From Alistipes sp. (lineage in GTDB: Bacteria > Bacteroidota > Bacteroidia > Bacteroidales > Rikenellaceae), in assembly GCA_017631035.1 (NCBI GenBank), contig JAGBUB010000011.1, positions 1 through 40,667 on the forward strand: 40,667 nucleotides of DNA, written 5' to 3'. The position numbers and the translations under genes were made by a program. Below are positions 17,279 to 30,051 of the stretch, piece by piece. Each line of letters starts with the position of its first letter. Within the stretch, counting starts at the first letter, position 1. The notes beneath the pieces are model-generated. The model did no database searches, was not told the origin of the DNA, and saw nothing but the letters and a program-made list of their open reading frames with translations.

Positions 17279-18757
17279 TTATTTTCTACGTAATACCGAT
17301 CTGAGCATCGCACGCAAATCGATCTTCTCACGCCACACGGCATAGGCCACAAACAGGGCGAAGATTACGACATTGGCCACATAACCCATCAGCTGACCCA
17401 CATAGGGCAACAGTGCCTCGCTCGCAAAGAAGAGCGCAACGCCAAGCACGACATACTCCACGATGCGACGCACGTCGTAGGGTGTGGGGAAGTAGCGGCG
17501 ATTGAGGTAGTAGCTCACCACCACCATAGCGGCCTCGGCAACAAAACGGGCCCACGCGGCACCATAGTATCCCCAGCGGGGGAGCATCACGACGTTGGCT
17601 ACGACCGTAACGGCCAGACCAACGAAGGTTACATAGATGGCGAAGCGGGTCTTCTCCTCGCGCTTATACCAGAACGAGAGGTTGAGCCACACACCTGCCA
17701 GCACATTGGCACCCAGAATGACGGGCAGGATGAAGATGCCCTCGCGGAAGTCGCGGCCCACAATCAGCGCAAACACATCGCGGAAGAGGGCTATGCCGAG
17801 GAAAATCATCATCGAGGCCATCATATAGTACTTCAGCGCAGCGGCGTTGGACTCCACAAACTCCTCCTTCGAGAAGTTCGATAGGAAGAAGGGCTCGGCC
17901 GCAAGACGGTACATCTGAGTGAAGAGTGTCATCACCACGGCAATCTTAGTGATGGCGCCATAGATGCCGAGCTGTGCCATAGATATATCCTCGGGCAAGA
18001 GGTATTTGATCATCTGGCGGTCGATAAACTCGTTGGCAGTGCCTGCAATGCCACCCACCAACAGGGGTAACGAGTAGGCAAGTATAAGGCGCAACTGGCG
18101 GCCATCGATGCGGGGAATGGTGCGCTCGGTGGTGGGCAGAATGAGCAGGAACGTAGCCACGCTGGCTACAAGGTTGGTAACAAAGACCCATCCCACGCCA
18201 AACTCCGACTCGAACAATCCCGTAGCCTGAAACACCACAGCAAGCGAGACGTTGATAACCACGTTGCACGCCTTGAGCATAACAAACTTAAGGGCTCTAC
18301 CCTGCTCACGCAGACGCGAGAAAGGAATCATCGTAGCCACATCGAAGAGGATAATCGAGGCGACCAGCACCACATAGAGCTCGTTGCCAACGTAGGCATC
18401 GCCCATCCAGCGGGCAATCGTTGAGCGGAACAATACAACCACAACGAAGAAGAGCAACGAGGCTACAAGCGTAGCGCCCCAAGTGGTTGCAAAGAGGTGG
18501 CGTTTCTTGCGGCGCACATCCTCCTCTGCCCCACCCTCGGCTTCGGCCTTGGCGGCAAAGCGGAAGTAGCTCGACTCCATACCCATCGACAACAACACCA
18601 GCGCAAAGGGGATAAGCGCATAGACGTCGGTCACGATGCCGTAGGCCACCTGACCAAACACACGCGTGTAGAGCGGTGTGAGCAGGTAACTGAGCAGTCG
18701 CACGACGATGGTGCTGATGCCGTAGATGGCGGTCTGTTTAGCTAACTTTTCGAGCAT
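17279..18757 (-). CDS. Oligosaccharide flippase (MOP family, Wzx-like)
   Basis: A 492-aa integral membrane protein with about 12-14 TM segments. It opens with [31 protein letters not shown], the standard start of polysaccharide biosynthesis / MATE-like MOP flippases, which move lipid-linked glycans across the inner membrane. The substrate is unknown; no glycan gene cluster is adjacent. First gene of the flippase-dut-cyclophilin unit, with a leader of about 125 nt. Confidence 0.9.
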
Positions 18758-18888
18758 TTTTCACTTTTCGGTTTGGGGCTCATCCATCCCTTGCCGGGGC
18801 TGGAGGCAGAGCCGAATTTCTCGCGCTCACGCGTGTGAGGCGTGCCTGCGACGCATAAGCGCACGCGCACAATGCGCGATATGACCTG

Positions 18889-18896
18889 CAAAGTTA
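18889..18896 (-). promoter_or_regulatory. Flippase-dut promoter -7 element
   Basis: TAACTTTG on the minus strand, a perfect TAnnTTTG box. The start point would be near 18882. The transcribed leader contains a palindrome CTCACACGCGTGAG and CG-rich inverted repeats. No clear TTTG -33 element. Confidence 0.55.
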
Positions 18897-18899
18897 ATA

Positions 18900-19079
18900 A
18901 TTTTATTGGATTTGAGGGCCTGTTTTGGCGGCTTTTCACTGCGGGGTGGCAGAAATGGAGAATTTAGGTGTAAAATTTTCTTTTCTCACCGAGGAGGGGT
19001 TATCGGACTGAATAAGACGATTTTAGGGGTGAGGGAGTTAAATAATTTAATAAATAATTGAATTTTTATAGTCAAAATA
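18900..19079. other. AT-rich divergent spacer, nothing recognised
   Basis: About 180 bp between the minus-strand flippase promoter and the plus-strand promoter of the virus-derived cluster. No open frame of note, no tRNA and no attachment site is recognised. Confidence 0.5.
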
Positions 19080-19111
19080 CTTGACAAACGCTTTTTCGTG
19101 TATTATATTTG
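19080..19111 (+). promoter_or_regulatory. Promoter of the virus-derived cluster
   Basis: CTTG at 19080-19083, a 20-nt spacer and a perfect TATATTTG box at 19104-19111. Transcription would begin near 19118. It is the only strong promoter I see in front of the nine-gene cluster. Confidence 0.7.
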
Positions 19112-19113
19112 CA

Positions 19114-19179
19114 GTGTCGCAAATCACTAATCAGCATATTTATAAAGCCATTTTATAGGATTGGGCGAGTTTGCGACAC
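19114..19179 (+). promoter_or_regulatory. 10-bp inverted repeat at the transcription start
   Basis: GTGTCGCAAA (19114-19123) and TTTGCGACAC (19170-19179) are perfect complements separated by 46 nt, which themselves contain a TATAAA/TTTATA inner stem. The left arm overlaps the predicted start point, so it may be an operator half-pair or a 5' stem of the leader RNA. Confidence 0.55.
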
Positions 19180-19217
19180 GAGGCAACAATAAATTAAATT
19201 ACTGAACTTATCGTTTT

Positions 19218-19295
19218 ATGAAATACACTGTCCTCAACGCTATCAAACTTCCCTCTGCACTGCCACCGCACGGCGGGCTGAATAGCGAGTTATGA
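19218..19295 (+). CDS. Possible 25-codon leader ORF
   Basis: ATG at 19218 to TGA at 19295, beginning MKYTVLNAIK and ending NSEL. The codons (GTC CTC AAC GCT ATC) look like those of the surrounding genes and the ATG follows a TTTT-rich, A-rich stretch. Its last codons GAG TTA TGA form the left arm of a downstream inverted repeat, an arrangement seen in attenuators. No homologue is recognised and translation is unproven. Confidence 0.35.
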   Translation: MKYTVLNAIKLPSALPPHGGLNSEL

Positions 19296-19363
19296 ACATA
19301 TCAACAGCGAGGTTACATATGTAATGCTGACTTTTCAACATAGGCCAAACTGCGTCATAACTC
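19287..19363 (+). promoter_or_regulatory. Leader inverted repeat plus internal palindrome
   Basis: GAGTTATGA (19287-19295) pairs perfectly with TCATAACTC (19355-19363). Between them lies the perfect 12-bp palindrome TTACATATGTAA (19313-19324), a plausible protein-binding site. The right arm is followed by TTTAAAAAG, not a full T-run. Confidence 0.5.
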
Positions 19364-19447
19364 TTTAAAAAGCAGAGATGAGCGCCAGTAGCCTCGGCGC
19401 ATTATCAACAACGGGCTACATTGCAATCAACAATTTTATTAACACCA

Positions 19448-19468
19448 GAAGCCGAAAAAATCGGCTTC
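19448..19468 (+). promoter_or_regulatory. Hairpin 24 nt upstream of first cluster gene
   Basis: GAAGCCGA-AAAAA-TCGGCTTC: an 8-bp perfect stem with a five-A loop. With no T-run after it, it is more likely a translation-control or RNA-stability element than a terminator. Confidence 0.5.
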
Positions 19469-19491
19469 CGACCCCTAACACCCCTAAAAAA

Positions 19492-19896
19492 ATGAACCGA
19501 ACCAACCTACTGAAAGCCATCGAGAGCTCGGCAACGGCCAACGGCTATCACTTCTACTCGGGCGATGAGCACTACATTCCGCAGCTCGCCACGGCCTACC
19601 CTGCGCTATGGCTCAACCCGCCAAAGTTTCAATCCATCGAGGGTCGCACGCACGGAAAGATTACCTATGCCGTGACGCTGCACGCCATCGACGCCAACCC
19701 CAAGCTTTCGCCCGAGGAGCGTACGCAGGTGGGCACACGACTCGAAGAGCAGTTGCTCGACACATTTACCTCGCTATCGCAGGCCGACTTTGTGGTGACG
19801 GTGGAAAACCTGACGATCAAACATCAGTCGCTCACGCGAACGGCACTGGATGATGTGACAGCTACGGCGACGGCCGATGTGATTACATTCTTCTAA
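19492..19896 (+). CDS. Tail-terminator-like protein, cluster gene 1
   Basis: A 134-aa protein, MNRTNLLKAIESSAT onward. An upstream in-frame ATG at 19378 gives a 38-residue low-complexity extension and is rejected because 19492 follows a CCCCTAAAAAA leader like other cluster genes. The fold pattern (N-terminal helix, IPQLATAYPALWLNPP, strand TYAVTLHAID, long helix ERTQVGTRLEEQLLDTF, C-terminal strands VVTVENLTIKHQ and ATATADVITFF) resembles siphophage tail terminator / tail completion proteins in size and order. This is structural pattern-matching only; no signature proves it. Confidence 0.55.
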   Translation: MNRTNLLKAIESSATANGYHFYSGDEHYIPQLATAYPALWLNPPKFQSIEGRTHGKITYAVTLHAIDANPKLSPEERTQVGTRLEEQLLDTFTSLSQADFVVTVENLTIKHQSLTRTALDDVTATATADVITFF

Positions 19897-19915
19897 CCTA
19901 AAAACAACCTACATT

Positions 19916-20890
19916 ATGAAATTTACATTACTGCCCGAGGCATACTCATCGTTTCGGGAGCCCCTTCTCTACGCCTTCACGACCGAGAGCGAAACGCCAC
20001 GCGACGTGGAGATTAAGATTATCGACTGCGCCAACGGCGAGGTGATTGGCCGAAAGCGACTATACAACGTAACCTCGGGCGAGGTGGACATCGCACCCTA
20101 CCTGCGCTCGGTGGCACGGCCTACGCTGCCCACGACAATCGAGGGTTGTGGCGAAATCGATACCTCGACAAACATTCGTGTGATAGTGCAGGCCGATGGC
20201 GTGGACTCGGAGCCTAGAAAGTTCATCGCCGCAAAAATTGACCGCAACGCAATCTTCACGCTACTCTCATCGCAGCACCTGAATCGCACGATGGCGCACG
20301 ACGAGTTCGACATTGTCTGCTACTTCTCGTGGCCCGACATTGTGGTGAGCCTCGACGTGGAGTTCATAGGCAGTGGCAGCGAACTGTTGACAATTACCCC
20401 TCCCTCGGGCGGCCAGCGAGCCGTGGCGGTGACGGCCCGTGGTAGAGAGGGTGTTGATGCTATGAGGGTGACGCTCAAGGTGGATGGCACACCGATGGAG
20501 GTAATCGAATATGACCTCAAACCCAACCTCAGCAACGCCCGACGTGTGGCGTGGCTCAATACACAGCTCTCGCCCGAGGTCTACACCTTCCCGCTACGCA
20601 AGGGGGTGCTCATTGAGTCGACACGTCGCCATATGGAGAGTATCTGGGGACGTGAAGCGGCCAGCGTGGAAGCCCGCAACGAGCTGAAGCTACTCTCGGC
20701 ATACGAACCCGAGCAACAAATCAGGGCCATTGCCGAGATCCTCTACTCGCCCAAGGTATGGCTCATTGAGGGCCACGACGTGCGTAGCGTACTGCTCGCC
20801 ACCGACCGAGTGCTGATTTCGCCAAGCAAAGGTATGGGCATAGTGGAGGTGGACATTCGTGCCGCAGAGGAGGGCGTGCTGCTATGGTAG
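19916..20890 (+). CDS. Distal-tail-like structural protein, cluster gene 2
   Basis: A 324-aa beta-rich protein with no signal peptide. It starts FTLLPEAYSSFREPLLYAFT; the segment RRVAWLNTQLSPEVYTFPLRKGVLIE (about 208-233) resembles the W.N..G..E.YTF pattern common in Bacteroidetes phage tail-tip proteins. The C-terminal third has EIL YSPKVWLIEG-type strands. Its end overlaps the next gene by 7 bp, implying stoichiometric coupling with the large hub-like protein. The tail-tip (Dit-like) assignment is tentative. Confidence 0.5.
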   Translation: MKFTLLPEAYSSFREPLLYAFTTESETPRDVEIKIIDCANGEVIGRKRLYNVTSGEVDIAPYLRSVARPTLPTTIEGCGEIDTSTNIRVIVQADGVDSEPRKFIAAKIDRNAIFTLLSSQHLNRTMAHDEFDIVCYFSWPDIVVSLDVEFIGSGSELLTITPPSGGQRAVAVTARGREGVDAMRVTLKVDGTPMEVIEYDLKPNLSNARRVAWLNTQLSPEVYTFPLRKGVLIESTRRHMESIWGREAASVEARNELKLLSAYEPEQQIRAIAEILYSPKVWLIEGHDVRSVLLATDRVLISPSKGMGIVEVDIRAAEEGVLLW

Positions 20891-23214
20891 AGATTAAAAT
20901 CGACGGACAGAGGTGCGACACCGAGTCCTCGTTTGTGCCCGACAAGCGAGCCTTCTCGTTCGACGCCAAGGCTCTGGCCGATGTCGACAAGCAGCGCACA
21001 GGTCGCACGCTCACACTACGCCTGCCGTTATCGCCCACCAACGACCGCATAATGGGTTATGCTGCCGACCCTGCTGCGGCCGAGCTCTTCAACGCCACGT
21101 ATCACGAGGGTGAGGTTGTCGTTGACGGCGTTTCGCTCCTTAAGGGCGTGGCTACGCTGCTGGCCATCGAGGCTGATGAGGCTGTGGGATACTACAAAAT
21201 CCGCATACGCGACGGTGCGGGCGACTGGATTGAAAGCATAGCATCGAGGAGCCTCTCTCAGACCGACATAGGTTTCGAGGCTACGCTCAACGCAGAGACC
21301 ATTGTCCAGAGTTGGAGTGGCGAGCAGGGGGTAAGGTTTCTGCCGGTGCTCTTCGACGACTATCGCAACCCACACGACACGACATCGCTCTACCCACCCC
21401 AGCGAGTAATGACGGTGGCCGACTACTACCCCTTCATCTCGGTGAGAAAGTTATTGCAGGCCATATTCAAGGGTGCAGGCTACACGGTAGAGGGACAATT
21501 TATGGAGAGCGAGATGATGAAAAAACTCTACTTCAGCGGCCGTTACCCCTCGTCGGGTCGTTCGCTTAGGCGACTTGAAGAGAGTTCGGGATTTAAGGCC
21601 ACACGCACAACAGCCTCGACGACGACGGCCGACGAGTCGGGCAGGGTGTGGCTGACGCCGCTGGTGCTCACCTCGTCGCTGGGCAACTTTGTGGATTCGA
21701 CCGAGGGCGATGGGTGCTACAACAACCACGGCGTGTTGCAGATAGACTCGTCGGGCGTGGAGTACAGGCCCACGGTAGAGGCGAGTGTGAGTTTTGAGAT
21801 TGGGCTAAAGTACACCACCGAGTACAAGATGTTATCGAGCAGTCGCTTGCAGGGTTTCGACGCCTTATATGTCGATGCGGGATGCGATTTAGAGATTCCG
21901 CTTGCAAATCAGTTCAAGGACCGACGCTCGAGCCTCACGCCCGGTGTGGAGTACAGATTGGTGAACTTCAGCCACCAGACGGGTACCATCTACCGATTGG
22001 TATATATCACCGACTCGGGTTCGACCAACATCAAGACTTTCACCAAGGCCGAGACATTATTCACAATGCCCTCGCTCAGCGGTGGACGCTGTGTGCTACA
22101 GACCGCCAACGGCAAGGAGGTCACCGGCGACTGGGCTATCTACGACGGATGGGTGACCACCACAGGAGAGGTGGAAGTAGAGGTGGTATTGCAGACTCCG
22201 CCCGAGAGGCTCTCGCCCTCGACGGCCAAGAGCTTCAACAATATGTACCTGCACGGTGCAGAGGCCGAGCAGAGCGTAACGCTTGCGGCGGGATGCACAC
22301 TGCAGGCACGCTTCACCTCATCGCCTGCCGAGGGGTCGGCACTCACCTCCGAAACCATCCTCGGGCATCAGTGCTCGCAACTCGACTTCGTGAAGGCCAT
22401 AGTGCAGATGTTCAACCTGCGCATAGCGACCATCGAAGGCTCGCGCAGGCTTTTGATTGAGCCTTATGACAACTTCTACAACGGTGCGCTACACGACATC
22501 AGCCACTATGTGGAGCCACACAAGCCTATGCTGGCAACGGAGATGGCTGCCGAGGTGAGTCTCTCACGCTCGCTCGGCTACCGTAGCGAGGGCGATGGTG
22601 CCGTTGCACGACACAACGCTCAGAATGACGAGGTTTTCGGTCGCTGGAGCACCACAACACCCTCCTATGTGGCAAAGATGGGGAGTGAGCGCCTGACAAA
22701 CTCGCTCTTCTGCCCCACCATCTCGACAACGGGAGTACACGCCTCGGCACCATCGGCCCTGATTATGCAAGTGGGTGACCGCGACGCCGACGCAACGGAG
22801 GAGGTGGCAATGCGAATCGTAAGCTACGAGGGTATGGAGCCCCTGCCCGAGGGCGAGAGCTGGGGTGCGCCATCGTTCGGGGCGGAGTATCCACTGGCGG
22901 CCTTCCACTTTGCCGAGCGCTTCACGCTCTGCTTCGAGGATCGTGACGGGGTGCAGGGTCTACACCGCTACTACGACAAGCAGTGGAGCGAAGAGTCAAA
23001 GCGTCGCCGACTCAGCCTCTCGCTCACGTTGCCCGCACACCTCGTGCAACATATGTGCGACTGCGACGAGGACGGTGGCGCTCGCGACACCTACCGACTC
23101 AACATTGGCGGCCAGGGGGCGAACTACCATCTGAGTCGGGTGGTATCTTTCGACACGACCATAGGGTGTGCACAATGCGAATTTGTGCGTACCATTACCG
23201 ATGAATTAACCTAA
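20884..23214 (+). CDS. Large tail-hub-like protein, cluster gene 3
   Basis: A 776-aa protein, the largest of the cluster. It begins MVEIKIDGQRCDTESSFVPDKRAFSFDAKAL and contains FPLPLSPTNDRIMGYA-like and ADYYPFISVRKLLQAIFKGAGYTVEG stretches, a layout I associate with Bacteroidetes phage tail or baseplate hub proteins that start with a Dit/hub-like domain. QCSQLDFVKAIVQMFNLRI.TIEGSRRLLIEPYDNFY (about 500-540) also fits a hub motif. The C-terminus has a Cys-containing CDCDEDGG and CAQCE. No enzymatic domain is recognised. There is no tape-measure protein before it. Confidence 0.5.
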   Translation: MVEIKIDGQRCDTESSFVPDKRAFSFDAKALADVDKQRTGRTLTLRLPLSPTNDRIMGYAADPAAAELFNATYHEGEVVVDGVSLLKGVATLLAIEADEAVGYYKIRIRDGAGDWIESIASRSLSQTDIGFEATLNAETIVQSWSGEQGVRFLPVLFDDYRNPHDTTSLYPPQRVMTVADYYPFISVRKLLQAIFKGAGYTVEGQFMESEMMKKLYFSGRYPSSGRSLRRLEESSGFKATRTTASTTTADESGRVWLTPLVLTSSLGNFVDSTEGDGCYNNHGVLQIDSSGVEYRPTVEASVSFEIGLKYTTEYKMLSSSRLQGFDALYVDAGCDLEIPLANQFKDRRSSLTPGVEYRLVNFSHQTGTIYRLVYITDSGSTNIKTFTKAETLFTMPSLSGGRCVLQTANGKEVTGDWAIYDGWVTTTGEVEVEVVLQTPPERLSPSTAKSFNNMYLHGAEAEQSVTLAAGCTLQARFTSSPAEGSALTSETILGHQCSQLDFVKAIVQMFNLRIATIEGSRRLLIEPYDNFYNGALHDISHYVEPHKPMLATEMAAEVSLSRSLGYRSEGDGAVARHNAQNDEVFGRWSTTTPSYVAKMGSERLTNSLFCPTISTTGVHASAPSALIMQVGDRDADATEEVAMRIVSYEGMEPLPEGESWGAPSFGAEYPLAAFHFAERFTLCFEDRDGVQGLHRYYDKQWSEESKRRRLSLSLTLPAHLVQHMCDCDEDGGARDTYRLNIGGQGANYHLSRVVSFDTTIGCAQCEFVRTITDELT

Positions 23215-23234
23215 TTGAAAACCTAAAAGAGAAA

Positions 23235-24239
23235 ATGCAAACCAAGATTACAATCAGAAACGAAGCTCACACCTGTTACATCGACATCGAGGGCACGATA
23301 GGCGTACCCGAAGAGCATCAGTTCGAGAATGGCGACTCGCGTGTGGCTACTTTCAAGACACTACGTCACGAGGTGCAACGCATAGCCGAGATTGCCGCCA
23401 AGAGTGTGGTGGTGAACATACGCTCGACGGGCGGCGATGTGAACGATGCACTGCTCATCTACGATGCGCTGATGGGACTCGATGCACACATCACAACACG
23501 TTGCTACGGCTACACAGCCTCGGCTGCAACAATCATCGCACAGGCGGCAAACGACGGCTGTCGTGAGATTTCAAGCAACGCTATGTACCTGATACACAAG
23601 TCAACCTGCTCAATCGAGGGCAACGCCTCGTCGCTCGACGCACGTGCCGACCTATTGCGCAAGACCGACGAGCGACTGGCCGCACTCTATGCTCTGCACT
23701 CGGGACTCGATGCCCAGTTCTTTGCCGATTTAATGGCTGAGAATGGAGGCGAGGGACGTTGGCTCACGGCCCAGGAGGCGGTGGCGGCAGGTCTTGCCGA
23801 CCGCATTATCGAGCCTGCGGCCACGACCCAGCAACCCTCAACGGAGAGTGACCTGCCCACCGACAAGGCCCTACACGGCGAGGCGCACAACTCGACAGCG
23901 AGCGTGATTATCCGCTTCCTGCTCGGACGTCTGGCCTACCGCATCGAGGAGTGGCTGGAGAGCCTGCACCATAAGCATCAGTCAAAGCGCGAGGAGCGCA
24001 AAGCAAAGAAGCAGGCCGAGACACTCGCCCCCGAAGAGGAGAGCACCAAAGAGGAGAGTTCGCTACCGCAGGCGGCTGTACAGAGCCCCTCGCGTTCGGC
24101 GATTGCCTTCGACGAGGGTCAGCGCCGAGCCTTGGCCACACGCACAAAGCCTGTGGAGGACCCCTCGATGAATCAGTCTGTGCAGCAGGCCAACGAACGA
24201 GCCTACGCCGACGATGCCAAGGCCTTCGGCAGATACTAA
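23235..24239 (+). CDS. ClpP-type prohead protease with scaffold-like tail, cluster gene 4
   Basis: A 334-aa protein. Residues 1-195 are an S14 ClpP/SppA-like fold: VVVNIRSTGGDVNDALLIYDAL (oxyanion region), catalytic Ser96 in YGYTASAAT, His121 in AMYLIHKST, and RWLTAQEAVAAGLADRI. The position of the third (Asp) residue is unclear: the stretch before RW is GGEG. Residues about 196-334 are charged, Gln/Glu/Lys-rich and probably helical, like a capsid scaffold, so this looks like a protease-scaffold fusion. It lies directly upstream of the capsid gene, the usual order. Confidence 0.85.
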   Translation: MQTKITIRNEAHTCYIDIEGTIGVPEEHQFENGDSRVATFKTLRHEVQRIAEIAAKSVVVNIRSTGGDVNDALLIYDALMGLDAHITTRCYGYTASAATIIAQAANDGCREISSNAMYLIHKSTCSIEGNASSLDARADLLRKTDERLAALYALHSGLDAQFFADLMAENGGEGRWLTAQEAVAAGLADRIIEPAATTQQPSTESDLPTDKALHGEAHNSTASVIIRFLLGRLAYRIEEWLESLHHKHQSKREERKAKKQAETLAPEEESTKEESSLPQAAVQSPSRSAIAFDEGQRRALATRTKPVEDPSMNQSVQQANERAYADDAKAFGRY

Positions 24240-24299
24240 ACCACACAAAACCAAACTTTTACAAAAACCGATTAACAAACCTAAAACAACAGTAAAATT

Positions 24300-25292
24300 A
24301 TGTCAAACATTATCGTAAATCCCAAAACTTATTCAGGTCGCGAACTTGAGACCATCTTCTTCCGTCCCCTCTTGACCGGTCCTTCGGCCGAGTCACTCGG
24401 AATCCGCATCCTCTACAATATGCCTATGCCCACCGTAGTGCAGATCTGGGACAACAAGCAGAACGTGCTCACGCCCTTCGATCAGGCATCGGGCTGGAGT
24501 GGCGGCACAAAGTCGACACACTACCAGAAGACAATCCCTATGTCGCGCGTGAAGGCCGAGAACTCGTTTGCGGCAAGCGACTACTTCTCGACCGTCTTCG
24601 AGATGATTACCAACCGTGCCGATGTGAATATGGAGGATCTGTCGGGCACCGAGTTGGAGGCTGCCGAGACCGAGCTCTTCCGTCGTGCCATCGCCGAGTC
24701 TATTCGTATGAATATGTGGTTGGGCGACAAGGATAACACACTCAACACAAGCTTCAACAGCTTCGACGGTCTGCTCAAGATTATCAACACCCGCGTGAAG
24801 AGCGGCGAGATTGCCACCTCGTCGACCAACCTGAGCACGATGTTGAACGAGATGGAGATTGGCGAGCTCTTCTCTGAGGTTGTGAGCAAGGCCAACCCCC
24901 GACTGAAGGGCCTTTATGCCGAGGGTCAGGTGGCATTCTTCGTCTCACCCCGCATCTACGCCCTCTACCAGAGCTACCTCGACAGCGCCTACGGCTCGGC
25001 ATCGTATCAGGATTGCCAGACAGGTCGTGCACAGCTCGCCTACCACGGCTTCCCCGTAATTGAGATTAACCTCGAGCCCTACATCGGCGAGTCGGAACTC
25101 TCGGAGGATTTCATCATCTTCACCGACCGTCGCAACCTGGCCCTGGCTGTGAATACGGCCGACAGCCCCGGTTCGGAGATTCGTATGTGGTACAACCCCG
25201 ACGAGATGGAAAACCGCCAGCGTGCAGTGTTTGCCATCGGCTGCGAGGTGTTGGACGAGGAGTTGGTGTCGGCCTACATCGACGCCCAGTAA
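24300..25292 (+). CDS. Major capsid protein (HK97-like), cluster gene 5
   Basis: A 330-aa protein following the protease by 60 bp. It starts SNIIVNPKTYSGRELETIFFRPLLTGP and ends with FIIFTDRRNLALAVNTADSPGSEIRMWYNPDEMENRQRAVFAIGCEVLDEELVSAYI, the typical P-domain/A-domain end of HK97-fold capsids in Bacteroidetes phages. The middle GLLKIINTRVKSGEI and FVSPRIYALYQSYLDSAYG also fit. There is no N-terminal delta scaffold, consistent with the scaffold-like tail on the protease. The leader ACCTAAAACAACAGTAAAATT is A-rich, suggesting strong translation. Confidence 0.82.
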   Translation: MSNIIVNPKTYSGRELETIFFRPLLTGPSAESLGIRILYNMPMPTVVQIWDNKQNVLTPFDQASGWSGGTKSTHYQKTIPMSRVKAENSFAASDYFSTVFEMITNRADVNMEDLSGTELEAAETELFRRAIAESIRMNMWLGDKDNTLNTSFNSFDGLLKIINTRVKSGEIATSSTNLSTMLNEMEIGELFSEVVSKANPRLKGLYAEGQVAFFVSPRIYALYQSYLDSAYGSASYQDCQTGRAQLAYHGFPVIEINLEPYIGESELSEDFIIFTDRRNLALAVNTADSPGSEIRMWYNPDEMENRQRAVFAIGCEVLDEELVSAYIDAQ

Positions 25293-25304
25293 TAAGTGTG
25301 CCCT

Positions 25305-25757
25305 ATGACCGAGAAGAGATTATATAAGCCTGTGGGCGGAGTGGCCCACGCTGAACTATTCGCGGTAGGAGGGCTAACGTCGGCAGAGGATTTGGTACAG
25401 GGGCGAGGTCTTAGAGTGGAGCTAAGCGACGATGGGTCGCACTACCACGAGGAGGCCTCGGCCGACAACCTGCCCGTGAGCGTGCAACACACGCTCACCC
25501 TCTGCTCGACGCGATGGCAGGCGACCGAATGGTTCGATGCCGACTTCCTTGCCCGCGCCTCGGCCGACGGTGTGGTGGCTCGCATAGGGCTCTGCTCGGG
25601 CGAGAGTATAGTGGTGGGATGGAGCCAGCGCTTTGGCTTCGAGCAACCGCTACGACTACGCTCGCTGCTCTTCAACTCGGGCAGCCACGCCAACGACTCA
25701 CCGCGCGTGGAGCTGACACTCTCATCGTGCGACACCTGCTCGGCCTTCGATAAATAA
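25305..25757 (+). CDS. Tail-tube-like protein, cluster gene 6
   Basis: A 150-aa protein 12 bp after the capsid gene. It is beta-rich and ends with FNSGSHANDSPRVELTLSSCDTCSAF, which resembles the C-terminal 'sGs...d.P.v.LtLs..dt' ending of Bacteroidetes phage tail-tube or virion proteins. The middle VQHTLTLCSTRWQATEWFDADFLARASADGVVARI is consistent with strands around a central helix. The assignment is weak; a capsid decoration protein would be an alternative at this position. The ATG at 25305 was chosen over the GTG at 25296. Confidence 0.45.
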   Translation: MTEKRLYKPVGGVAHAELFAVGGLTSAEDLVQGRGLRVELSDDGSHYHEEASADNLPVSVQHTLTLCSTRWQATEWFDADFLARASADGVVARIGLCSGESIVVGWSQRFGFEQPLRLRSLLFNSGSHANDSPRVELTLSSCDTCSAFDK

Positions 25758-25776
25758 CACAGCAAAGAACAACATT

Positions 25777-27000
25777 ATGGAAAAAAGAAATACAAAGTCG
25801 ATGGTGGCTGTAGCCAACCGCAAGCAGGAGTCGCTCTTCGCAGTCTCGACACGTGCCGTGGAGAACGAGAAGTTCTGGCGCTGGGGTGATGACAACCTGT
25901 TGCCGAATGCACTCTCGCTGATGTCGCGCCGCTCGACCACCCACCGACGAATAATCAACGACAAGGCCGACTACATTGCCGGCAAGGGCTTCTCGTTCGA
26001 TGAGCAGGAGCCCCTGCTGGCCCAGATTGTGGAGCGAGCCAACGGTGAGGGCGACTCGCTGCGCCGCATAATCTACCGCCTGGCCTTCGACAAGGCGCTG
26101 ATGGGAAATGCCTTTCTGGAGATTGTAACCGACCCCGAGCACTCGTTCCTCTCGCTCTATCATCAGGATGCCTCGCACTGCCGACTCGCGCGTGACTCGC
26201 AACACATACTTTTGCACCACGACTGGTCGTCGTTCAAGGGCGAGCAGATGCAGTCGCTACCCCTCTACCCGCGCTTTGAGCAGCAGGCCGACGGCACTCT
26301 GCGTTCGATAGTGCATTACAAGGAGTATGAGCCTATGTTTGCACACTACGGCGTACCGAAATACATTGCAGGAATGGGCGTGAGTGCCATAGCCTACAAG
26401 ACCGACTGCTGGAACATATCGCGACTCGACAACTCGTTCCAGCTATCGGGCATTATGATGCTCGACGCCACGCTCGAGAGCGAGGCCGAGGCCGAGCGAC
26501 TGGTGCAGACGGCCGAGAAGCGCTTTGCGGGCACACCCGGACAGGTGATGTTTGTGGTGGGCGGAGGTGACGAGAACAACTCGTCGCGTTTCATCCCGCT
26601 CGAGTCGCACAACGAGGGCGACTGGAGTGCACTGCACGATCAGGCTACGAGCGACATCGTGATTGCCCACTCGTGGTTCCGCTCGCTCAGCGGACTCGAC
26701 TACTCGGCAGGCTTCAGCGCCGAGCGCATCCTGCACGAATATGAGGTGGCTCTGAACACCGTGATTCTAGCCGAGCAGGAGGAGCTGCTCGCGCCCATCA
26801 AGCGCATACTGCGCGAGGTGGTGGGTGTGAATGGCTCATCGCTCGAGATTGTAAACCGACCGCCGACACGTTCCAAGCCAATCTATATGAAGGTATGGGA
26901 GGCCCGCAAGGCCGACGGACTGGAGTACGATGCCGATGATGAGCGTCAGCAGGCCTACCTGTCGGAGATAACAAAGTACAACGTAACAAAAATTAACTGA
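25777..27000 (+). CDS. Phage portal protein, cluster gene 7
   Basis: A 407-aa protein. WRWGDDNLLPNALSLMSRRSTTHRRIINDKADYIAGKGF at residues about 33-73 is the typical portal entry motif of Bacteroidetes phages (DN.LP, repeated binding of S..H and I.GKG). YRLAFDKALMGNAFLEIV and the C-terminal helix SGLDYSAGFSAERILHEYEVALNTVILAEQEELLAPIKRIL fit the wing and stem of HK97-type portals. In most phages the portal precedes protease and capsid; here it follows. No terminase gene lies next to it. Confidence 0.8.
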   Translation: MEKRNTKSMVAVANRKQESLFAVSTRAVENEKFWRWGDDNLLPNALSLMSRRSTTHRRIINDKADYIAGKGFSFDEQEPLLAQIVERANGEGDSLRRIIYRLAFDKALMGNAFLEIVTDPEHSFLSLYHQDASHCRLARDSQHILLHHDWSSFKGEQMQSLPLYPRFEQQADGTLRSIVHYKEYEPMFAHYGVPKYIAGMGVSAIAYKTDCWNISRLDNSFQLSGIMMLDATLESEAEAERLVQTAEKRFAGTPGQVMFVVGGGDENNSSRFIPLESHNEGDWSALHDQATSDIVIAHSWFRSLSGLDYSAGFSAERILHEYEVALNTVILAEQEELLAPIKRILREVVGVNGSSLEIVNRPPTRSKPIYMKVWEARKADGLEYDADDERQQAYLSEITKYNVTKIN

Positions 27001-27012
27001 CCCTAAAGAACT

Positions 27013-27489
27013 ATGGCAAACAAGATTATTTCCCCGCCCGAAGTGGTGGCTCTGGCCTTCAGCGATGGAGGCTATGTGGCGAGCGAGGTGGTGAGCGAGG
27101 TGGATATTACTTCGGCCATCGAACGATGGATAAGGCCTGTGGTGGGTGAGCCCCTGCTCGAGGCGGTAGAGGGCGGCGACTACGCCACACTACTGGAGGA
27201 GTATCTGCGACCTGCGGTGGCCGCCTATGTGCGTCTGGCCATTCAGCCACGACTCAATGTAGCCACCTCGCAACTTGGACTCTATGCGCCCAACTCCTCG
27301 CACCACAAAGCTGCCGACGAGGCTTCACGACGCGAGTTAATGCGTTGTTTACGCACGCGAGCCACCACGCTGCTACGCCGCCTATCGACCTACCTGGAGC
27401 AGAACAAGGAGTCGATAAAGGAGTATAAATCAAGCGATAACATTCTAAACCGATGCTCACTCGATGGAGGCTTTATACAGATTTTTTAA
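27013..27489 (+). CDS. Head-tail connector-like protein (DUF6712-like), cluster gene 8
   Basis: A 158-aa, mostly helical protein: ISPPEVVALAFSDGGYVASEVVSEVDITSAIERWIRPVVGEPLLEA, then LLEEYLRPAVAAYVRLAIQPRLNV and a C-terminal helical region LMRCLRTRATTLLRRLSTYLEQNK. This pattern is shared with small helical proteins encoded just after portals in Bacteroidetes phages (I believe DUF6712), which serve as head-tail adaptors. It is 12 bp after the portal. Confidence 0.6.
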   Translation: MANKIISPPEVVALAFSDGGYVASEVVSEVDITSAIERWIRPVVGEPLLEAVEGGDYATLLEEYLRPAVAAYVRLAIQPRLNVATSQLGLYAPNSSHHKAADEASRRELMRCLRTRATTLLRRLSTYLEQNKESIKEYKSSDNILNRCSLDGGFIQIF

Positions 27490-27519
27490 CAGCTTGCCAC
27501 TCTGGCGTTATCTGCGCCG

Positions 27520-27945
27520 ATGGCTACGAAAGGGGGTGGTGGGATGAGTCGCGGCATAGAGAACTGTAATCCGGGCAACATACGTCGTTCGCGAGTGCGC
27601 TACCGAGGCGAGTGCCACCCCTCGACCGACCCACTCTTCAAGCAGTTTGAGACGATGGAGTGGGGTTATCGTGCGATATTCATCCTGCTCGACACCTACC
27701 GCTCGCGATATGGGTTGCAAAGCATACGGCAGATGATTATACGCTACGCACCACCCACCGAAAACCACACAGCTCTCTACATCGATGCGGTGTGCGATAT
27801 GACGGGCATACGTCCCGACCTGCCCATCGACACGCGCGACAGAGCCACGATGGTGCCCATAGTGGCGGCCATTTCGCGAATAGAGAATGGCTGTGCGGCC
27901 TGCCGTGCCGAAGTCGAAAGAGGATTCGACCTGACAGGGTTTTAG
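27520..27945 (+). CDS. Muralytic 'structural protein P5'-like protein, cluster gene 9
   Basis: A 141-aa protein with SRGIENCNPGNIRRSRVRYRG, FKQFETMEWGYRAIFILLDTYR and IIRYAPPTENHTALYIDAVCDMTG: the conserved pattern of the lysozyme-like family often named structural protein P5, thought to cleave peptidoglycan. The start may be 27544 (MSRGIENCN), because the first eight residues MATKGGGG are low-complexity. There is no holin or signal peptide. Last gene of the cluster. Confidence 0.7.
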   Translation: MATKGGGGMSRGIENCNPGNIRRSRVRYRGECHPSTDPLFKQFETMEWGYRAIFILLDTYRSRYGLQSIRQMIIRYAPPTENHTALYIDAVCDMTGIRPDLPIDTRDRATMVPIVAAISRIENGCAACRAEVERGFDLTGF

Positions 27946-27972
27946 GATTGGGTTAGTGATATAAAGTAATCT

Positions 27973-27994
27973 AAAAAGGACTTTTAAGTCTTTT
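27973..27994 (+). terminator. Weak terminator-like hairpin after the cluster
   Basis: AAAGGACTT / AAGTCTTTT pair with one G-U; the loop is tight and the T-tract lies inside the 3' arm. It is 28 bp after the last cluster stop codon. Confidence 0.4.
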
Positions 27995-28391
27995 CCACTT
28001 TTTGTGGAAAAAGTGGAGCAAAAGCCACCGCAAGGCGAAATTTCGGGGATCGTCGCTTGTCGTCGGTAAAACGATTGCTTCGCACTTTTGAAAGCAATCA
28101 AAAGGTCATCGTTTTTTAACCCTCCGTCGGCGCAACGCCCTTTTTCCCTAAATTTCGCAGTGCGGGAGGGGCTGACGCATTAAAAAAAATACAAATCACA
28201 CCTATGGTGTGAAGCATCGCGGTCGGCAAGTTTTCGGAAATAGGGCAGGCGGGAAAATTTCCGTTTAAAAACAGAGAACTTTTCACGAAGTAAAAGCGCG
28301 AAGGCGTCTGTTTTAAGAAATTTTTGCCGCTGAACCCGAAAACTTGTCTCCGCGCGGTTTTTGCGCCACTTTTTTGGCGGCAAAAAGTGGC
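27995..28391. repeat. Intergenic element bounded by two like hairpins
   Basis: The left boundary is CCACTTTTT-GTGG-AAAAAGTGG (27995-28016); the right boundary is GCCACTTTTT, a 7-nt loop, AAAAAGTGGC (28365-28391). The two share nine-base arms in the same orientation about 370 bp apart. The interval has long frames on the minus strand with low-complexity basic products, and I reject these as genes. This looks like a dispersed Bacteroidales intergenic repeat (from memory, unverified). Confidence 0.5.
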
Positions 28392-28445
28392 ATAAAGAAA
28401 AATTAACCCAAAAACAAAGCCACTTTTACAACGCTTAAACTTTTT

Positions 28446-28490
28446 TGACCAAATGGAGAGGGAAGGCTTCTTCGTTTGGTCATTTTTTTT
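28446..28490 (+). terminator. Intrinsic terminator upstream of comEC
   Basis: TGACCAAA (28446-28453) pairs with TTTGGTCA (28475-28482), followed by eight T. It would end readthrough from the cluster or act as an attenuator just before comEC, whose ATG is 14 bp after the T-run. Confidence 0.7.
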
Positions 28491-28503
28491 GTAACTTAGC
28501 TCT

Positions 28504-30051
28504 ATGCTTCCGCCGCTCGAAAACATAGCCTCGCACCTACGCCAAACGCCTATGCTCAGTGCATTGGCAGCACTCATCGTGGGCATACTTCTGGCCGAAT
28601 GGATTGAGCCATCGGTCGTGGTGGTAGCAGGCGCAACGGTCTTGGGCTTAGCAACTTTCATCTTGGGGCGAAAATCCGCAACAGGCGACCTTGCTGTGCT
28701 CATAATAATCGTTCTCGTGGGTGCTCTGGCCCGCACTCTGCGTACTACGCCCTCGCTACCTGCTGTGGCCCAGATGGAGATTGAGGTGGTGCGCACGACC
28801 ACCCTTCGCCACAACACCACCTACGCCGAAGGGCGCATCAGAGCGCTGCGTCAAGATGGCTCCACCCTGCGCTCGAGAGCCGAGGTGCGGCTCAGCATAC
28901 GCGACTATACGATGTCTGATGGCGACAGGCTCATAGTGGCTGCCTCGGCACGTCCCTTCGGCTCAGGGGAGGCCTACGACCGATATATGGCGGCACAGGG
29001 TTTTGTGGCCGAGATTTTCATTACCGAGCAGGATATTCTCCACCACCAAAAGGCCGAGCCAAAGTTCATAACGCGACTGCAACACTCTGCTCTGCAACGC
29101 ATTAAGCAATTAGGTCTATCGCCCGATGTGGAGGCCGTAGCCCGCACCGTTGGTCTGGGCGAGAGGATAGCCATAAATAGCGACCTGCGCCAAAACTACT
29201 CGCTCAGTGGCGGAGCACATCTGCTGGCAGTGTCGGGTCTGCACGTCGGCTTTTTGTGTATGGTACTCAACATTTTGCTGGTGCTACTCACCCTGCTACG
29301 CAACGGGCAGATAGTGAGGAGCATTGTCGTGGTGGTCGGGATATGGATATATGCCGCCATAGCGGGCTTCTCGCCCTCGGTGGTGCGTGCGGCGGTGATG
29401 TTCAGCATTGTGCAGGCCTCGCTCCTCGCCTACTCCTCGGCTCGAACACTCAACTCGCTATGTTTCACAGCCTTTGCTCTGCTCATCTTGGATGCACGCA
29501 CGCTGCACGATGCCGGTTTTCTACTCTCCTTCACAGCCGTGGCAGCCATCGTCGAGTGGGTGATTCCCTTCACCGCATCCAAAAGGCAGGCGCTACCCTC
29601 GCATAACCCTCTGCGCGATGTCGTGCGCCGAGTGATGATATGGCTGATAGTATCGATTGCCGTCGCCATAGCCGCCACCGCGGCCACCCTGCCGTTGGTG
29701 AACCATCTGTTTGGTAACATATCGCTATGGGCCATCGTACTCGGCCCCGTGCAGATGTTGCTGTGCGGAGTAGCGGTAGCAACAACCATAGGCTGGGTGC
29801 TGATGCCAATACCTCTGCTTGGAGGGGTTGTAGCAGGCATATTGGAGCTGAGCATTGGAGCAATGAATTCGCTGGCGCAGTGGGCGGCCGAGAGTGGTGC
29901 GCTCTCAACGCAGAGCAGTATTGGTAGTGGTTGGTGCATAGCCATATATACACTATTTGTGGCATTTACCCTCGCTCTGTGGGCCCTGCCTCGACCCAAA
30001 AGAGATGGTTATCGGGATTTTGTGTTGCACGAAACGGTGAGCGAAGAATAA
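28504..30051 (+). CDS. comEC: ComEC/Rec2-type DNA channel protein, without metallo-hydrolase domain
   Basis: A 515-aa integral membrane protein. The N-terminal TMs and DUF4131-like part (residues 1-170) precede the Competence domain, whose signature GGAHLLAVSGLHVGFLCMVLNILLVLL (about 238-264) is clear. About ten TM segments end near residue 500. The C-terminal beta-lactamase-like nuclease domain of full-length (about 700-aa) ComEC is absent; such short forms are common in Bacteroidetes. A TAACTTAG box at 28492-28499 would give a very short leader, so the ATG at 28552 is an alternative start. Confidence 0.88.
   Translation: MLPPLENIASHLRQTPMLSALAALIVGILLAEWIEPSVVVVAGATVLGLATFILGRKSATGDLAVLIIIVLVGALARTLRTTPSLPAVAQMEIEVVRTTTLRHNTTYAEGRIRALRQDGSTLRSRAEVRLSIRDYTMSDGDRLIVAASARPFGSGEAYDRYMAAQGFVAEIFITEQDILHHQKAEPKFITRLQHSALQRIKQLGLSPDVEAVARTVGLGERIAINSDLRQNYSLSGGAHLLAVSGLHVGFLCMVLNILLVLLTLLRNGQIVRSIVVVVGIWIYAAIAGFSPSVVRAAVMFSIVQASLLAYSSARTLNSLCFTAFALLILDARTLHDAGFLLSFTAVAAIVEWVIPFTASKRQALPSHNPLRDVVRRVMIWLIVSIAVAIAATAATLPLVNHLFGNISLWAIVLGPVQMLLCGVAVATTIGWVLMPIPLLGGVVAGILELSIGAMNSLAQWAAESGALSTQSSIGSGWCIAIYTLFVAFTLALWALPRPKRDGYRDFVLHETVSEE

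Follow-up and report, generated by a model that had tools for sequence, protein, structure and literature searches.

The stretch of DNA analysed here (the window; 40,667 nucleotides) is the entire contig C15, positions 1-40667, of an incomplete Alistipes genome of the family Rikenellaceae (G000; 1.25 Mb in 41 contigs, 57% complete), and it carries, from position 19492 to 27945 on the + strand, nine open frames (g1 to g9) with short spacers or overlaps. These genes are probably part of a domesticated Rikenellaceae siphophage that acts as a gene transfer agent (GTA) and has its genes in two places. The system should be regarded as a candidate, and not a proven, GTA, whose packing of DNA, lysis and transfer are predicted from its genes. 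The evidence comes from the identity of the encoded proteins, from a separate large terminase gene (TerL) that accompanies the cluster in almost the whole family, and from the descent and selection of both.

Most head proteins of the cluster could be identified by family or by fold. The product of g4 (23235..24239, 334 aa) is a ClpP-type head maturation protease, with matches to the Clp protease family PF00574 of Pfam (E 3e-26) and to phrog_94 (head maturation protease, E 4e-42). That of g5 (24300..25292, 330 aa) has only weak sequence matches; its AlphaFold2 model (predicted local distance difference test score, pLDDT, of 82; predicted template modelling score of 0.79) retrieves HK97-fold capsids in Foldseek searches of PDB and BFVD, which points to a major capsid protein of this fold. 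Entries 6tb9 and 6tsu, from the capsid of the Rhodobacter capsulatus GTA (RcGTA), are among the fold matches, and the model likewise resembles encapsulins, as HK97 folds do. The portal protein, g7 (25777..27000, 407 aa), matches phrog_11226 (E 2e-20), with a Pfam portal match below its cut-off. Its neighbour g8 (27013..27489, 158 aa) matches DUF6712 (PF20459, E 1e-11) and, from its place next to the portal, is a probable head-tail connector. In three genomes of genera g34 and g37 (L194:5376-6521, L195:6665-7720, L196:13229-14218) a long low-complexity insertion with much Ser, Thr, Glu, Asp and Asn interrupts the DUF6712 protein.

The remaining genes relate to the tail and to lysis. A preliminary description of the window, which was right about the capsid, protease, portal and muralytic parts, had taken g6 (25305..25757, 150 aa, with 25296 as a possible GTG start) for a connector-like protein, whereas its AlphaFold2 model (pLDDT 92) is predicted to fold like a siphophage tail tube. 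The top Foldseek match is lambda gpV with a modest E value (1.8e-3, probability 1.00; no match had an E under 0.001), and the 50 matches listed are, with few exceptions, proteins of tails, baseplates, necks or contractile systems. Unlike this fold comparison, profiles of the capsid and of g6 run against the sequences of solved structures gave nothing useful. A probable tail-tip or hub protein is encoded by g3 (20884..23214, 776 aa), whose homologue in phage L121 matches the minor tail protein phrog_737 (E 5e-6). For g1, g2 and the precise role of g8, the assignment is by position: g2 (19916..20890, 324 aa) is a probable distal tail protein by phage tail gene synteny only, and g1 (19492..19896, 134 aa, in a frame open from 19378), for which no useful family match was obtained, is a probable tail terminator from synteny with phages and from co-occurrence with g6. 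The last gene, g9 (27520..27945, 141 aa; probable start 27544), encodes an endolysin-like muralytic protein (phrog_873, E 2e-39). The Pfam and PHROG matches of the nine proteins included none to a terminase, a tape measure, an integrase or a replication protein, the last three absences being as first described, and neither a sheath nor a cargo enzyme was recognised.

The preliminary description also held that packaging genes are absent, which is true at the cluster only, since the same genome has its own TerL as a 469-aa frame on contig C21 (phrog_38, E 8e-86), whose ATP-binding stretch PPQHGKS is invariant in 12 of 12 aligned orthologues. Scanned neighbours of the cluster and of this TerL belong to host families or to no family, and no replication or integration genes were recognised there. 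Family-wide, 113 genomes of 16 genera were searched (G000 and 112 genomes at least 90% complete). A capsid profile matches 109 of them, from 14 genera; the gene is single in each genome except G006, which has two, and in the search table the capsid frames are without stops in all 109. A TerL profile built on 12 orthologues also matches 109 genomes, 100 of these once. Capsid and TerL, the most widely found of the parts tested, occur together in 107 of the 113 genomes and are both missing from G125 and G128 (Fisher p 0.0056); G108 and G110 have the capsid only, G100 and G115 TerL only. Of 53 family genomes (G000 and 52 with a completeness of 97% or more), 51 match Pfam Terminase_6N, 47 of them once; 6 of 14 control genomes match it too. 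Six virus records, which may be fragments, gave no match to Terminase_6C. In genus g26, TerL of two genomes (G123:C3:18462-20036, G124:C31:6249-7817) matches as two parts within one open frame, which implies an insertion between the ATPase and nuclease halves.

Outside the family both genes are rare. The capsid profile matches seven of 198 genomes of the order, three of them Rikenellaceae and the other four weak or partial; the TerL profile matches eight, again with three from Rikenellaceae, and the best of the five non-family matches, in G192, adjoins a phage-type small terminase. A search with the single protein matched 36 of 61 genomes: all but one of the 37 belonging to the genus and none of the 24 that represent other families. 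The relatives of the cluster (80 named records kept out of 146) carry the label Alistipes or Rikenellaceae, apart from two called 'Bacteroidales bacterium'. In annotated phages, searches with capsid and portal returned only distant portals and two unannotated human-faecal scaffolds. Pieces of this chromosomal cluster are filed in virus collections, in IMG/VR as viruses (L112-L119) and MT838736 and MT838805 in GenBank as 'Bacteriophage sp.' from human faeces. Such records are no evidence of packaging, because most of the contigs are short and carry the cluster and little else.

The distance between the two loci varies. TerL directly precedes g4, g5, g7 and g8 in G134 and G137; in G139 it precedes g5, g7 and g8, with g4 after these, and in G142 it lies ~4 kb before g2. 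In five genomes with TerL and capsid on a single contig the gap is ~1.3 kb in G134, 20 kb in G119, 0.22 Mb in G118, 0.76 Mb in G120 and 2.0 Mb in G104. The simplest reading of these arrangements would be that the capsid and TerL loci were once together and then came apart.

Both loci have been inherited largely vertically. In trees of 28 genomes with capsid, TerL and host RelA/SpoT, the Mantel correlations are 0.81 (capsid-TerL), 0.86 (capsid-host) and 0.93 (TerL-host), with 0 of 2000 permutations as high in each case. Of 25 splits, capsid and TerL share 15, capsid and host 20, and TerL and host 14; well-supported conflicting split pairs number one, one and three, respectively. The cluster is under purifying selection, as measured by the ratio of nonsynonymous to synonymous substitution rates (dN/dS) in seven independent close pairs. 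The median is lowest for the portal, at 0.06 (7 pairs), followed by g4 at 0.11 (5), the holin gene described below at 0.13 (5), g6 at 0.14 (1), capsid at 0.17 (7), g9 at 0.17 (4), g8 at 0.17 (6, one at 0.50), g3 at 0.20 (5) and g2 at 0.26 (4); g1 had no usable pair. An initial calculation from divergent pairs that were not independent (medians 0.20-0.58) was discarded because it approached saturation, and the TerL median of 0.20 comes from 311 non-independent pairs of that calculation only. The suggestion that the cluster is selected for a particle thus gains from its presence in 109 of 113 genomes, the host-like trees and medians of 0.06-0.26, and its unlikeness to a decaying prophage from the family-wide single copy and the lack of an integrase in the cluster. 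The accompanying claim of complete frames is correct for the nine frames of the window and does not extend to every relative, some of which show decay; such decay is confined to a minority of lineages.

The surroundings of TerL suggest how the system may be controlled. Of 51 distinct TerL sequences, 49 had at least 1.1 kb upstream; a short gene X lies there in 40, a divergent LexA-like repressor gene in 40 and both in 38, with neither in the prophage L293 described below. Gene X (~96 aa; L193:7886-8173 on contig C21 of G000) has no Pfam or PHROG match. The repressor carries a helix-turn-helix (HTH) and a Peptidase_S24 domain and is not general to the order, since at E 1e-30 it is matched in 9 of 198 genomes, three of them Rikenellaceae; G000 holds a second, weaker match. 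Among 50 distinct repressor stretches, 45 have an S24-like G-D/E-S-M/L motif, and in 46 the linker region contains Ala-Gly or Cys-Gly; we assume these features, by analogy with LexA and CI, to stand for self-cleavage upon DNA damage. In many listed intergenic sequences a palindrome TTCAA-N3-TTGAA, or one near it, overlaps the X promoter. An operator common to both loci was not borne out: with up to one mismatch the palindrome occurs in 10 of 64 upstream regions, and in 3 of 64 after one simple shuffling of the sequences; exact copies number one in each. In two aligned sequences of genus g26 the small terminase is reduced to its C-terminal half, the HTH half of the phage proteins being absent. 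Two further genomes gave partial matches, and in genera g34 and g37 a candidate, a short gene without clear family match, lies in its position.

Related viruses and a prophage bear on the origin of the cluster. Virus contigs L121, L162 and L164 carry g3, a frame of 1010-1015 aa, g5, g6 and g7 in this order, and the 1010-aa frame of L121 matches the tape measure phrog_991 (E 8e-56). Alistipes genome G006 holds both a domesticated cluster (L298) and a prophage (L293) with TerL, g1, g2, g3, an 893-aa frame, g4, g5, g6, g7 and g8 in order. This prophage resembles the family system in these genes, including a TerL of the same profile, and differs from it in the long frame between g3 and g4, a small terminase (Terminase_2), a reverse transcriptase and an integrase ~8 kb upstream, as well as in the lack of X and the LexA-like repressor beside its TerL; it also has a holin. 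The window cluster thus corresponds to a module of the L293 type minus the long frame and minus the terminase. No Pfam tape-measure match was obtained for the 893-aa frame; the tape-measure family PF10145 scores above threshold in 10 of 53 genomes (18 of 53 with E 0.001 as the limit), G000 not being among the 10, and its matches never lie within 100 kb of the capsid gene on the same contig, with the limit that Pfam is blind to the L293-type protein. The prophage appears complete (L293 and L295, G006:C31), and its reverse transcriptase beside the terminase genes could belong to a diversity-generating element. The preliminary description held that a terminase or tape measure beside the cluster in relatives would make it an ordinary prophage remnant. 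Terminases in this position do exist in other genera (G134, G137 and G139), and the sister prophage L293 has a tape-measure-like frame; a mere remnant does not follow from either, as the orthologues across the family are no prophage in decay.

Gene content was compared in 81 loci, each picked for holding the capsid gene, of which 59 had room on both sides. The full set of ten, in which a holin gene lies between g8 and g9, is present in 20 of the 59; g1 and g6 are lacking in 24, g1, g6 and the holin in seven, the holin alone in three (the window included), and g1, g6 and g9 in two. L054 is without holin and g9, L107 without g9 and L106 without six genes. That g1 and g6 go together (both in 25 loci, neither in 34, discordant in none) is what one would expect if they encode a tail tube and the matching terminator. 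The stretches from G134, G137 and G139 showed no g1, g2, g3 or g6, and a g6 match is kept in G136. The holin gene is found in 47 of the 59 loci and lacking in 12. It matches phrog_199 in three sequences (E 3e-7, 4e-5 and 2e-3), and a prophage gene at its place matches Pfam Phage_holin_4_1. In the window a remnant of 27 codons (27464..27547, +) resembles at both ends the full gene of relatives, and its stop codon overlaps with the likely start of g9 (27544). Holin and g9 are found together in 44 loci, the window being without an intact holin. The earlier statement that lysis genes are absent therefore fails for the system as a whole; lysis appears to have belonged to the system, and the holin seems to have been lost in several lineages.

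If the system works as a GTA, the repressor would be relieved in some cells, the S24 domain suggesting DNA damage as the trigger. Heads would then assemble and be matured by the protease, and TerL would pump host DNA through the portal almost regardless of sequence, given a small terminase that is without its DNA-binding half or could not be found. Lysis would come about by holin and endolysin, or by some other route where the holin has been lost, and particles with a reduced tail would deliver DNA to kin, probably via the g2/g3 tip. A more detailed version has, in our judgement, about even chances of being right. It holds that this is an independent family-wide GTA lineage in Bacteroidota, perhaps the first of the phylum, in which TerL moved away from the head genes, the small terminase lost its DNA-binding half and then vanished from the TerL locus, and the tail is being reduced step by step (tube and terminator disappeared jointly in part of the genus, and a group of three genera has no tip), under the control of a LexA-like repressor of its own.

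Several observations weigh against a GTA. Particles, packaged DNA and transfer are all deduced from genes. Tube and terminator are missing in 34 of 59 loci, and g3, present in 104 of the 113 family genomes, was not found in six genomes of genera g34, g36 and g37, which makes the delivery step uncertain. The operator-like palindrome of the TerL locus is not clearly shared with the region upstream of the cluster, and searches with two seeds gave no small terminase next to TerL in Alistipes or in genus g38. Decay is seen in single genomes: G115 has kept TerL and is without capsid and portal, neither capsid nor g3 was found in G100, the portal of G108 is in two frames and its TerL was not found, and g3 is broken in G158 and L106. 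G066, with a truncated TerL and the capsid cluster kept (L284, L285), amounts to a natural half-mutant. Some of these cases may be assembly errors. In a study of gut particles, Rikenellaceae are among the most abundant families in total DNA, and the particle-borne bacterial DNA is dominated by other families; the word Alistipes is absent from its main text (PMC12946183).

The missing tail parts bear on the first alternative, a domesticated DNA-packing particle that transfers no genes and persists because lysis pays in some other way, for example by freeing DNA or nutrients or by harming competitors. The conserved head, portal and TerL and the lysis genes in most loci would suit it, and with tail parts missing in many loci, and g3 in one genus group, delivery may be unneeded. 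On the other hand, purifying selection maintains g2 and g3 across most of the family, which hints that the particle meets a recipient, and we regard this alternative as unlikely. It is still less probable that the system is a conserved decoy, with capsid and terminase parts made by the host disturbing the assembly or packaging of related incoming phages. A related prophage, L293, does exist in the genus, and through the S24 repressor the genes could come on when a phage infects or is induced, yet a decoy needs few parts, and protease, portal, g8, tip and lysis genes are all kept.

Chance persistence of an old grounded prophage in slow decay would account for the missing tape measure, for some loci being without holin, g1 and g6, and for the decay in G100, G115, G066, G108, G158 and L106. 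It is very improbable in view of 109 of 113 genomes and 14 of 16 genera with stop-free capsid frames, host-like trees, purifying selection and a separate TerL persisting in the same genomes; the sporadic presence, integration or immunity genes and decaying frames of an ordinary or defective prophage do not characterise the system. A tailocin or cargo shell is hardly credible. Tail-tube and tail-tip-like parts, a cluster without tape measure and the encapsulin-like capsid model speak for one, but a tailocin would be a tail without head and packaging genes where capsid, protease, portal and TerL are present here, and neither a tailocin nor an encapsulin-type shell needs the portal and terminase that are conserved, nor was a sheath or cargo enzyme recognised. 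Among the three options first proposed, a GTA therefore fits best, because the terminase co-occurs in the same genomes; tailocin and cargo shell fit less well, since capsid and terminase are the widest parts and g1, g6 and g3 are lost in some lineages. Features of known GTAs are indeed present, namely phage-derived head genes and a terminase kept in host genomes (both in 107 of 113), vertical inheritance, purifying selection and, among the nine cluster proteins and the scanned neighbours, no recognised genes for replication or integration of its own.

The closest known systems, besides the sister prophage, are GTAs. RcGTA and its alphaproteobacterial relatives are vertically inherited, according to PMC10883770, and the small terminase of RcGTA is described in PMC11841831 as being without a DNA-binding domain. 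The Rikenellaceae system shares the vertical inheritance and the origin from a domesticated tailed phage with an HK97-fold capsid, and, in the two g26 sequences aligned, the reduced small terminase. It differs in that, in Alistipes, TerL is unlinked from the head genes, the cluster is without tape measure and a small terminase was not found, and in that tail genes were lost in some Rikenellaceae lineages. FpGTA of Faecalibacterium has, according to PMC12946183, a divided genome in two separate operons. It is similar as a gut commensal's system with two operons, structural and lysis genes, a short or no tail and, going by the two g26 sequences, a small terminase without obvious DNA-binding domain; its terminase lies with the head genes and its tail and lysis operon is separate, whereas in Rikenellaceae it is TerL that stands apart. 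VSH-1 of Brachyspira, a prophage-like GTA with a divided genome by a title among the references of PMC11841831, is similar in having its genome in separate parts. For RcGTA, particle and transfer are proven, and for FpGTA there are particle and DNA data, while the Rikenellaceae system is known from its genes. No GTA of Rikenellaceae or Bacteroidota was named in the titles and abstract openings of the open-licence literature searched. In the review PMC11841831, GTAs are said to be hard to identify by bioinformatics and their prevalence to be unknown.

Upstream of g1 the window contains further features. A promoter-like sequence, TTGACAA...TATATTTG (19081..19115, +), lies ~380 nt before g1; it is also present in L032, L035 and L041 by alignment by eye, and its pattern was found in six of eight checked relatives whose cluster starts with g2. 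It is followed by a leader stem-loop (19114..19178, +) with a fold z-score of -3.6, none of 200 shuffles being as stable, and Rfam has no match in 18700-28600. Between 19200 and 19480 the leader contains repeats like TTATNAACA or TTTTCAACA, also present in L032, L035 and L041, which in our view resemble DnaA boxes. The intact housekeeping flanks of the preliminary description are borne out, as flank genes match host families, e.g. DNA polymerase III delta subunit, ComEC and RelA/SpoT, and the same neighbour genes recur in part of the relatives. The closest genes upstream of the cluster are presumably a flippase, a dUTPase and a peptidyl-prolyl isomerase.

If the GTA reading is true, Alistipes and its relatives, which are common gut bacteria, would have a route of gene exchange that has not been looked for. 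Its escape from notice would be explained by the fact that each locus alone looks like a remnant and that cluster pieces sit in virus collections as phages. The family would also offer a natural series in which the reduction of a phage to a packaging apparatus can be followed.

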